Shown piece after piece: positions 1-10,999 of a DNA stretch of 10,999 nt. The stretch is taken from contig MHGR01000010.1 in assembly GCA_001805655.1 (NCBI GenBank), forward strand, positions 1-10,999, in the 5' to 3' direction. Source of the stretch: Omnitrophica WOR_2 bacterium RIFCSPHIGHO2_02_FULL_52_10. GTDB taxonomy: Bacteria; Omnitrophota; Gorgyraeia; Zapsychrales; Zapsychraceae. The stretch's first letter is position 1. Each line of letters opens with the position of its first letter. A program made the position numbers and the translations under genes. Under the pieces are notes generated by a model. The model was not told the origin of the DNA, searched no databases, and saw nothing but the letters and a program-made list of their open reading frames with translations.

Positions 1-826
1 CCTCAATATCCCTGATTATGTTGAGATCATCTCTGACAAGTTCGGCATGACGAGCTAGAGTTTCCGCAATCACCTTTTCGGGATTATAGGTATAGTCGGC
101 GTGCGTCGCTTCATGAACAATGATCGCACCAATAGCTTGCGCCACCACCAAATCCTTCAGTAATTCATTGATATATATCGTATTATATTGCGGCCCCCGC
201 CAAAGCCCCAATGCATTTTCGTGTCCATATTTTATAAAATTATCGTAAATAACGCTGATCTTTTTATTAATGATTAAGTCATAAAAATATTGTCCAGTCG
301 TAGTCCCGTTTAACGAATTTATTGCAGTTTGAATATCCGTATCAATTTCCTGATCCGGAGGAGGAGTGGCATCTTCACCGCTCGTGCTACCACCACTTCC
401 ATCATCAATATTATCACCGCCACCACCAGTATTATCGGTGTTCACGTTACCGCTAGCACCACTGCCGTCGCTAATGTTCCACCCTCCGCCGCCTCCACCG
501 CTACCGCCGCCAAAACCGCCGCCTCCGCCGCCACTGCCAGAGCTACTGCCTTCGCCGCCCCCACCGCCGCCCCCGATATAGCTGTTGTCAGCTATTTCCT
601 CAACTCCCGCTACTGTAAGAACCTCTTGGCCGTCCCACATAGATAAAGCAATCTGGTCCGCCATATTCATCATCCCGGAACTGGTGGATGACAAAACCTC
701 ATCATACGCTGTTTGGAAGGGGCTAAGAGGCCCCAAAAACATAAGTGCGGCCCCAATAATGACCGCAATGAGGACCAGATATTCTATACCCGTGATCCCT
801 TTATGTGCCCTGTGATTATTAGTCAT
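1..826 (-). CDS. Flp/type IVb prepilin-like protein with Gly-rich linker and HExxH metallopeptidase domain (3' end outside window)
   Basis: The reading frame is open for 275 codons from the ATG at 826 to the window edge; the C-terminus is missing. Residues 1-10 form a short basic leader ending in Gly10. A hydrophobic segment follows (about 11-32) with Glu at +5 and Tyr at +6 (GITGIEYLVLIAVIIGAAL). This is the signature of Flp/Tad-type prepilins cleaved by a prepilin peptidase. Residues 85-150 are a low-complexity Gly/Ser/Asn/Asp linker, ending in a PPP turn near 155-157. The C-terminal domain has HEATH at 238-242, a zinc-binding HExxH motif with Glu239 as expected catalytic base. Glu255 or Glu262 could be the third ligand. 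Inferred role: a pilus- or membrane-anchored surface metallopeptidase. There is no clear Shine-Dalgarno, but a promoter candidate lies about 110 nt upstream. The pilin-like N-terminus is well supported; peptidase activity is not proven. Confidence 0.8.
   Translation of the reverse strand, partial: MTNNHRAHKGITGIEYLVLIAVIIGAALMFLGPLSPFQTAYDEVLSSTSSGMMNMADQIALSMWDGQEVLTVAGVEEIADNSYIGGGGGGGEGSSSGSGGGGGGFGGGSGGGGGGWNISDGSGASGNVNTDNTGGGGDNIDDGSGGSTSGEDATPPPDQEIDTDIQTAINSLNGTTTGQYFYDLIINKKISVIYDNFIKYGHENALGLWRGPQYNTIYINELLKDLVVAQAIGAIIVHEATHADYTYNPEKVIAETLARHAELVRDDLNIIRDIE
377..574 (-). repeat. Gly-rich low-complexity coding tract
   Basis: This tract encodes residues 85-150 of the pilin-like protein. 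It is built of GGC/GGT/GGA glycine codons with Ser, Asn and Asp interspersed, so the plus strand reads as GCC/CCG-rich simple sequence, densest at 481-575. Its length may vary between strains through slippage; that is inference. Confidence 0.7.
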
Positions 827-2083: not shown

Positions 2084-3841
2084 TTAATGGTTTTTGACTA
2101 TCCTGAGCAATTCTCTGGCCGCCTCGAGCGGGCCTTTCTGCTCACAGCCGGGAACACCCAGCCGCGTCCTCATCTGCCCCACATATATTTTCTTTTCATA
2201 GAAGAGCTTGAAATATTTCATGGCAATCCGGTCATGCGCTTCCTTGTACTGGGGAGGGCCGAAAATATTGGCAAAATACGAGTGGACGAGCCCGGTCGAG
2301 GTCGTCGTGCCTTTGCTCATGACCGTCCCTTCCTTAAAAATATTAAAGGCCAGCTCGGGGCTTTCAATGCGCTCAATCAGGGGATGCTCGGCATCGATTT
2401 CCTCATAATTATTGGCGTATAAAATAAAGCCGATCTTATGCTCCTTAATCACCCGCTCAAAGGCCGTGACCGGTATGATGATCCGGGCGTTCACCTTGTT
2501 GGCGCCCATGATGATCGCCCGATCCATCTGCCCGAAGGCGTAACCGGGCTTTAAATCGTCCAGCCGCAAAAACGCGCCGATCTCCGTGCCTATGCCGACA
2601 ATATCATTTTTCTTGCTCTTGCGCACGGACCCCATGTCATCCGCGATGATATGCATGTCCGTGATTTCCTCATCTCCGGCTTCCCGCAGCGCCTCCAGAG
2701 TTTCGGACTTGCCCGCCCCGGTGTCGCCGATCAATAGAATGGTCGCCTTGTTCTTCGACTTTAAGGTCAACTCGACCAGCGCCCCGTGAAAGGGCAGCTC
2801 CCCCCTTTTCATGATGACGATATTATGCAGCGTCAGCGCCATCTTCTTCAAATACCCGAAATAGCCGAACTCCTCGCTGTCGGGGACGGCCGCAAAAAGA
2901 ATGCCGTGCTCTTCGTCATCGTAAAAAACCGTCTGGGACTGCCCTAAACCTTTCACGACGCTTCCCGGAACGCCAAAGCAATAGACCGCGTCCGGCTTCA
3001 CCCGCAGGTCCTTTTCATCCGCCAGCTGAAAAAGATTCGATAAGGTGTAGCCCAGCTCGGCATAAGAATTATGAAAGTAAATTAAAATCAGCAACTGGCC
3101 GACCTTGGCGGGATAGCACACCCATTCATTCTTCTTGATGACCAATCTATCCAACGGATTCTGGCTCACCCGCTCAAAGGACCCCGTCCGCTTATTCATC
3201 GGCGGATTAAAAATGAGGGGCGGATAGAGGAGGACCTGACGGATGACGGGAACGGGGTTTAACTTTTGGTAGGCTTTTGAGGGAAATTTAAATTTATGGG
3301 GAATGGCGATGGCGGCAATTTCCGCGCCGGCCCGGACCTGGCGGTATATTTTGGGGTGGGTCCCCGTGATGCTTTCCTCAATGTCACGGTAGGTGGCCCT
3401 GACCAGATGCATTAATTGCTCAATCGTCTCGTTAAAAATATGGTACGGCCGCTTCTCAATATCGACGTTTTCTGAAGAACAAATGAGAAAGCGGTCGAAA
3501 CTTCTCCAATAATTATAAAGATGCTCGACAAAATCATTAAACAGCATTTTATCCCGGAGGAAAACCTCCGACCCCTGGACGACGTTGGGGACCAAATCCC
3601 CTTTCATTTTCGGCAAATAAAAAAGGGTCTGGATCAAGGTTTGGATGTGCGCGTCGGTGATCTTCCTGGTTTGAAATATTTCCAGCAGCTCGGAATCGCG
3701 TTTCTGCAGATCCTTGATGCACTGCTTTAAGACGCACGCGAACAGCTTGCTGGAGATCAGCTCATCCGAATCCTCGCAGACCCTGTTTTTGATCCTGATG
3801 ATTATTTTTTTCCCGTAAAATTCAAATTCACCGAAAGTCAT
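2084..3841 (-). CDS. PEPCK/HPr-kinase-like P-loop ATPase with a large N-terminal domain
   Basis: This 585-aa protein has a C-terminal half that reads like the PEP carboxykinase/HPr kinase fold. HGALVELT at 352-359 precedes a Walker A loop GDTGAGKS (372-379). Next come the acidic HIIADDMG (398-404, Asp401/Asp402 as likely metal ligands), GTEIGAFLRLDDL (418-430), and a C-terminal GTTTSTGLVHSYFANIFGPP stretch (511-530). The last resembles the nucleotide-closing region of PEPCK. The N-terminal 340 residues are not recognised; they are rich in aromatic and charged residues and lack membrane segments. Classical HPr kinases are about 310-330 aa and ATP-PEPCKs about 530 aa, so this is neither. I see no PTS genes nearby. 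Kinase, phosphatase or carboxykinase activity cannot be decided. The ATG at 3841 has an in-frame stop shortly upstream and no clear Shine-Dalgarno. The gene follows a DUF486 gene after a 203-nt structured spacer. Confidence 0.7.
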   Translation of the reverse strand: MTFGEFEFYGKKIIIRIKNRVCEDSDELISSKLFACVLKQCIKDLQKRDSELLEIFQTRKITDAHIQTLIQTLFYLPKMKGDLVPNVVQGSEVFLRDKMLFNDFVEHLYNYWRSFDRFLICSSENVDIEKRPYHIFNETIEQLMHLVRATYRDIEESITGTHPKIYRQVRAGAEIAAIAIPHKFKFPSKAYQKLNPVPVIRQVLLYPPLIFNPPMNKRTGSFERVSQNPLDRLVIKKNEWVCYPAKVGQLLILIYFHNSYAELGYTLSNLFQLADEKDLRVKPDAVYCFGVPGSVVKGLGQSQTVFYDDEEHGILFAAVPDSEEFGYFGYLKKMALTLHNIVIMKRGELPFHGALVELTLKSKNKATILLIGDTGAGKSETLEALREAGDEEITDMHIIADDMGSVRKSKKNDIVGIGTEIGAFLRLDDLKPGYAFGQMDRAIIMGANKVNARIIIPVTAFERVIKEHKIGFILYANNYEEIDAEHPLIERIESPELAFNIFKEGTVMSKGTTTSTGLVHSYFANIFGPPQYKEAHDRIAMKYFKLFYEKKIYVGQMRTRLGVPGCEQKGPLEAARELLRIVKNH

Positions 3842-10459: not shown

Positions 10460-10999
10460 TCAGCCAAGCTCCACCCCTTTTTCCTTGAGGACTTTTAATA
10501 AATAGTCGGCATGCTCCCTGCCCCTTTGCGGGAAATGATAGAGATCCAAGTAAAGCTGGAGATTGGAAACGACGGACAAGCCCTTTATTTCCTGTTTATG
10601 GAGAAAGACGGAATTCTTATAGTAGGGCCTGATAAAGCAGACATTACCGCCGTTTTTCAATTCTTTCAAATCCAGCGCCTGCCGGATTTCCAGAGAGATT
10701 TCTGTGAAACGGTCACTGTCCAGATAGCAGTAAGTCACCGGTGTATTGACATAACTGCTGATCAGATTGGCGCCGGTATGGAGCGTTAAGGCATATTTAT
10801 CGTCCCACTTCTTATTTTGGAGGAACGTCTTCATTTTTTTTAAGATATCATCTTCACTATAGTAAAGATGGCTTTCGTTGAGTTCAAAGGTGTAAACACG
10901 AAGCCACTCTTTAATCAAGCCCTCCCTGTCTGTAAGCCGGCTGTAAGCCTGCCTGCCGGAGGCGATCCCGCCCACATAGCCTTTTTTCCGCAATTCGGC
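10460..10999 (-). CDS. AbiEi-type antitoxin/transcriptional regulator (5' end outside window)
   Basis: The frame is open from the window edge to TGA at 10460, giving 179 visible residues with no proper start codon, so the N-terminus (expected winged helix) is missing. The visible part matches the C-terminal domain of the AbiEi antitoxin/regulator family (AbiEi_2-like). It has an ALTLHTGANLISSYV segment, a GGNVCFIRPYYKNSVFL segment, and the diagnostic VSNLQLYLDLYHFPQRGREHADYLL near the C-terminus. In type IV toxin-antitoxin systems AbiEi represses the operon and counters the nucleotidyltransferase toxin AbiEii, usually encoded just downstream. Here the downstream gene is a TPR protein, so no toxin partner is visible. 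It may be an orphan regulator, or the partner lies beyond the window. Confidence 0.7.
   Translation of the reverse strand, partial: AELRKKGYVGGIASGRQAYSRLTDREGLIKEWLRVYTFELNESHLYYSEDDILKKMKTFLQNKKWDDKYALTLHTGANLISSYVNTPVTYCYLDSDRFTEISLEIRQALDLKELKNGGNVCFIRPYYKNSVFLHKQEIKGLSVVSNLQLYLDLYHFPQRGREHADYLLKVLKEKGVELG

Follow-up and report, generated by a model that had tools for sequence, protein, structure and literature searches.

The window analysed here comprises 10,999 nucleotides from Omnitrophica WOR_2 bacterium RIFCSPHIGHO2_02_FULL_52_10 (assembly GCA_001805655.1, contig MHGR01000010.1) and represents the whole of contig C10 of a 76 %-complete genome of 1.56 Mb in 137 contigs (G000). At its first edge, a minus-strand open reading frame (ORF; positions 2 to 826, 275 residues), designated here C0, encodes an Flp-type modular pilin with a metallopeptidase-like domain. 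Its start was placed at the ATG at position 826, an alternative TTG 36 bases upstream being possible, and the frame is open to base 2. As the first base of the window is also the first of its contig, the loss of the 3' end is attributed to the assembly edge; set by eye against P0002, a full-length relative of 362 aa, C0 lacks ~80 residues at its C-terminus, among them the DQEY motif.

The N-terminus of C0 consists of a class III prepilin leader (residues 1–10, positions 797 to 826, minus strand; MTNNHRAHKG, followed by ITGIEYLVLIAVIIG) that ends in Gly10, after which a prepilin peptidase site is predicted; next comes ITGIEY, in which Glu occupies +5 and Tyr +6. This leader is followed by an Flp-like pilin module composed of a hydrophobic α1 helix and a short body (residues 11–62, positions 641 to 796, minus strand), assigned on the basis of identity to pilins of a Tad locus on contig C28 of the same genome (44 % to G000:C28:3319-3489, E=8.2e-9; 45 % in an alignment with L055:3298-3510), and G10 and E15 are invariant in a seven-row alignment that includes four Flp-like pilins of G000. 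A Gly/Ser/Asn/Asp-rich tether (approximately residues 93–156, positions 359 to 550, minus strand; 78 % G/S/N/D) leads to the metallopeptidase-like catalytic domain (residues 160–275, positions 2 to 349, minus strand), which was delineated by profile matches and an AlphaFold (AF2) model of the P0002 domain, lacks its C-terminal part and contains the HExxH zinc-site motif HEATH (residues 238–242, positions 101 to 115, minus strand). The original prediction, made from the letters of this DNA, had proposed a type IVb prepilin start, a Gly/Ser/Asn/Asp linker and HEATH at these residues; all three are borne out by the sequence and ORF, and HEATH, being conserved across relatives, is beyond chance.

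C0 therefore shows the leader type (class III, with Gly at −1 and Glu at +5) and the hydrophobic α1 of a modular type IV pilin, together with an additional non-pilus domain joined through a linker, and its pilin part is homologous to the Flp-like pilins encoded in a Tad locus. Since a Pfam scan of the window protein matched no family, including Flp_Fap (PF04964) and DUF6782 (PF20573), C0 is called Flp-type here and is not filed in PF04964.

A protein search with C0 retrieved 12 related proteins (P0002 to P0013, 362–397 aa), and a search with an alignment of the catalytic domain gave 26 at E≤0.01, of which six were distant. Candidates P0014 to P0020 (E=0.02 or worse) were rejected, those viewed being unrelated Gly-rich proteins. 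The domain profile matched 13 of 190 relatives and 32 of 384 genomes of the phylum, both counts including G000 and a false hit in G089 (L035, 294 aa), which has neither pilin nor tether and was hit over 32 positions; removal of this hit leaves 31 of 384 sampled Omnitrophota genomes carrying the domain. No other genome of the genus or family of the window was among these matches, and a scan of named genomes yielded 15 loci, every one titled Candidatus Omnitrophota or Omnitrophica. A viral origin was rejected as far as close relatives are concerned, viral contigs scanned with the A2 pattern giving no match. The 133 profile hits represent 76 distinct domain sequences, from which L035 and six distant, non-pilin relatives (P0041 to P0046) were set apart to give 69 members.

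In the alignment of these members, the HExxH residues are conserved in 68/68 (H), 67/68 (E) and 68/68 (H) rows with letters, and the later Glu, within DQEY, in 67/67; in the HExxH columns L050 is blank owing to the alignment, its protein (as L139) holding the motif. H238, E239, T241 and H242 were already invariant in a first alignment of 13 members. A Gly/Ser-rich run of at least 20 residues precedes the domain in 51 of the 52 members with enough upstream sequence, and every member whose start is visible carries, by eye, an N-terminal pilin module. The two-part architecture is found across the phylum, mostly with a GspG-type rather than an Flp pilin. One Flp-type member, P0028, has no Gly-rich tether and contains HDAVH in place of HExxH, and is possibly inactive. 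In L034, L036 and L042, which belong to the V. archaeovorus clade, tether and catalytic domain are separated by a stretch that resembles FN3 by eye; the two proteins scanned with Pfam, L034 and L036, gave no FN3 match.

Membership of a named peptidase family was rejected, as Pfam matches in the 13 members scanned comprised the pilin N-terminus (PF07963 in 11) and weak hits (SprT-like, 0.0016, in six; M48, 0.027, in three), and NCBIfam returned mostly pilin N-terminus models. The domain of P0002, used as a stand-in for the truncated domain of the window, was modelled with high confidence (predicted local distance difference test score 97.5), with HEATH inside helix 75–93 and the DQEY glutamate inside helix 146–163; the lack of a metalloprotease-like helix pair at HEATH, by which the original prediction would have been refuted, was not observed. 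The motif of a gluzincin is thus present in the window sequence and its helix in the P0002 model; the putative third-ligand Glu lies on the later helix of that model and is conserved in the relatives, its position in the window copy lying past the contig edge.

The closest solved folds to the P0002 domain are HExxH proteins, none of them significant: Foldseek ranked selecase chains first by E-value and probability, with jannalysin lower (best E=0.038, identity ≤16 %), and abylysin and selecase appear in the VIA listing. We take all three to be minigluzincins, proteins of ~110 aa. A profile–profile link was also found to the DUF6782 (PF20573) putative metallopeptidases through P0042 to P0046, with HEATHA and the later Glu aligned, although these bridging proteins of 184–213 aa have, unlike C0, no pilin module and begin by eye with a hydrophobic, signal-like stretch; L036 and L050 fall below the DUF6782 cut-off, and the non-pilin relative P0044 lies above it (27.9 versus 27). 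Six further Omnitrophota proteins of ~650 aa (L125, L128, L129, L131, L132 and L133), which match DUF6782 weakly and lack a pilin module, apparently represent another putative metallopeptidase group. Overall, the model points to a fold resembling that of zincins, with ligands conserved in the relatives; zinc binding and proteolysis by the C0 domain are inferred. The combination of an Flp-type pilin leader with a metallopeptidase-like domain, as first suggested for this locus, is confirmed, and its reading as a pilin-like anchor for a putative protease is supported.

The same tether and domain were found behind different pilins. P0002 shares the Flp-type start of the window, and P0003 to P0013 have a GspG/type IVa start; across the family, most members carry a GspG/type IVa module and nine, including the window, are Flp-type. 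By eye, the pilin part of P0022 resembles another pilin of the G000 Tad locus. A tree of 61 catalytic domains comprised 38 GspG-type and seven Flp-type members and 16 fragments without an N-terminus, the Flp-type L050 and L052 being too partial for inclusion. On this tree the Flp label changes six times, at least four of these changes being forced by starred branches; shuffled labels need 6.8 changes on average, and the Flp label is therefore scattered about as at random. The window clade (P0001, P0002 and three fragments; support 100/94) adjoins a GspG-type row (97/95), the Flp-type P0029 is sister to the GspG-type P0010 (100/99), and genome G134 encodes GspG- and Flp-type copies in tandem whose domains fall within one small clade (98/97). 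Judged from these sequences, the enzyme is the constant part and the pilin the variable part, and the enzyme appears to have moved between pilin scaffolds several times. The family would provide a natural experiment in which pilin anchors are swapped under one enzyme.

Wherever the locus is not cut downstream (29 of 29), C0 is directly followed by a gene, designated here C1, whose product has the PsbP/Mog1 fold and is predicted to be membrane-anchored. A lipobox-like motif is present in 22 of 41 C1 proteins, and most of the other 19 have an N-terminal hydrophobic stretch by eye. The fold is shared with PsbP, LpqN and DcrB, and with the Eag chaperones of type VI secretion and the immunity proteins Tsi3 and Tli4, although the tabulated C1 member falls below the PF01789 cut-off. 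The partner gene of the window copy would lie past the contig edge, and the pairing is seen in the relatives. C1 would most likely serve C0 as its own chaperone, inhibitor or immunity protein, which may constitute a new role for a PsbP/Mog1 fold beside pilins; the relevant literature passages on these proteins do not describe a pairing with a pilin-enzyme gene.

With regard to the filament, the original prediction would have been refuted by a genome lacking Tad or prepilin peptidase genes. Tad genes are present in G000: contig C28 carries a protein with AAA_31 and T2SSE domains, which we take to be TadZ-TadA-like, a secretin, RcpC/CpaB and several Flp-like pilins. The former is a single 717-aa protein in which the TadZ-like AAA_31 domain is fused to a TadA-type T2SSE ATPase (L055:6964-9117), and the secretin (L055:9468-11117) has a C-terminal TonB_C domain. 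Prepilin peptidase (PF01478) was not found in the 76 %-complete G000 but is present in 29 of the 32 genomes searched in the family of G000 and in three of four other genomes of the genus. RcpC occurs in 16 of the 31 C0-positive genomes and, among genomes with Flp-type members, in G000, G134 and G415, not in G346. A GspG-type module of G368 and its neighbouring TPR gene follow genes matching components E, F, G, K and M (M below cut-off) of a type II secretion system (T2SS), at a locus that also holds a PilM/PilN-like gene and additional pilin-like genes. In three Omnitrophota genomes (L061:6847-8919, L064:3672-5741 and L065:13985-16054), an ORF that by eye resembles glutamyl-tRNA synthetase runs in frame, with no intervening stop, into the TPR protein preceding C0; in L066 the synthetase ORF is separate from it.

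Taken together, these data make it moderately probable that C0 is a modular minor pilin that presents a metallopeptidase on a Tad-type filament, accompanied in its relatives by a downstream partner. Prepilin peptidase would cut off the 10-residue leader, and the α1 helix would anchor C0 in the inner membrane and let it enter the filament, on which the flexible Gly/Ser tether would carry a zincin-type (HExxH...E) metallopeptidase outward. The enzyme would then cleave extracellular proteins, probably on other cells, and relatives with GspG/type IVa pilins would do likewise. C1, predicted to be membrane-anchored and to face the periplasm, would hold, shield or inhibit the enzyme-pilin before export.

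It is possible, if rather unlikely, that C0 is instead a periplasmic protease of the inner membrane, its pilin helix a mere anchor outside any filament, which matures or clears envelope, pilus or T2SS proteins of its own cell under a PsbP-fold regulator. An interchangeable anchor class would suit a generic membrane anchor, the partner looks membrane-anchored too, as suggested by the lipobox-like motif in 22 of 41 and the hydrophobic stretch in most of the others, one locus stands at the end of a T2SS-like operon, and the neighbours shared within families f32 and f41 look like vertical inheritance. Yet GspG-type members keep the pilin head and not just the helix, the Gly/Ser-rich runs of 37–169 residues in 51 of 52 members exceed the need of a periplasmic enzyme, and the trait is patchy (31/384 genomes), all of which speaks against this reading.

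Display of the metallopeptidase could also take a more aggressive form, which we regard as doubtful: Omnitrophota predators would fire C0 as a pilus-fused protease effector at prey through a Tad or type IVa/T2SS-like filament, with the PsbP-fold protein encoded directly downstream acting as cognate immunity protein to shield their own periplasm, and the pair would have been refitted to pilin scaffolds repeatedly. An adhesin, in which the zincin-like fold and metal site are kept for surface binding in the manner of the lectin and vWA modules of other modular pilins, appears improbable; it would agree with the adhesin function of the modular pilins characterised in the relevant passages of PMC8179133 and with the HDxxH of P0028, but not with the retention of the catalytic Glu in 67/68 and the later Glu in 67/67 members. 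A HExxH enzyme other than a peptidase, for example an oxygenase like the HExxH domain of ChlB, is more improbable still. Finally, the idea that HExxH arose by chance in an unrelated surface pilin rich in Gly, as the lack of a Pfam match for the window protein alone might suggest, is refuted by the related proteins, the motif in 67/68 aligned members and the confident model of a relative.

Several known systems resemble this arrangement. Modular type IV pilins, including PilB and PilC of Streptococcus sanguinis, share with C0 a pilin module that starts with a prepilin leader and is joined by a linker to a grafted domain not peculiar to pili; passages of PMC8179133 mention S74 and M26 peptidase modules among those predicted. 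According to the same passages, these pilins were gathered by the N-terminal IPR012902 motif and those studied are adhesins, whereas the C0 family differs in its unnamed HExxH cargo, the alternation of N-methylation and Flp anchors, the long Gly/Ser tether and the coupled PsbP-fold gene. The tips of the Kil Tad pili of Myxococcus xanthus contain minor pilins with variable domains and serve contact-dependent predation (PMC12075869, in part); C0 is likened to them by description, although the tip domains are not called peptidases in that part of the source and the window gene lies outside its Tad locus. The closest working principle is that of flagellinolysin, a filament subunit with a zinc metallopeptidase that cuts proteins (PMC7643111, in part), but this is a flagellin and not a pilin, and the Pfam matches obtained for the 13 scanned members include no flagellin family.

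In the open-licence literature, no title among the matches listed describes a pilin-HExxH fusion. Modular pilins are known; as far as these searches reach, the HExxH pilin family, the anchor swapping and the C1 partner are new. A function as a weapon or digestion tool is plausible from the biological context, and C0 could be one way for tiny, possibly predatory Omnitrophota cells to attack or digest other cells. If so, it would stand among pili as flagellinolysin does among flagella, and would offer a concrete candidate, amenable to cloning, for the action of ultra-small, uncultured Omnitrophota on other cells. Genome G134, which has two C0-C1 pairs, matches the predator Candidatus Velamenicoccus archaeovorus (P0070 is its BU251_07725), and its RcpC at 12766 falls within the Tad locus given for CP019384.1 in the passage of PMC10066038 concerned. 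This predator is kept in a limonene enrichment culture; as its matching genome holds two copies, published proteome data could test such a role.

Nine other ORFs of the window, scanned with Pfam, include no pilus gene; the scan matched a chromate transporter, DMT_6, DUF3617, AAA_14-DUF4143, an ABC transporter, a TPR protein and an AbiEi-like protein, two ORFs giving no match. A 585-aa protein without a Pfam match (2084-3841, minus strand) contains a P-loop-like GDTGAGKS motif by eye, and the AbiEi-type antitoxin-like gene (10460-10999, minus strand) lies at the opposite end of the contig from C0.
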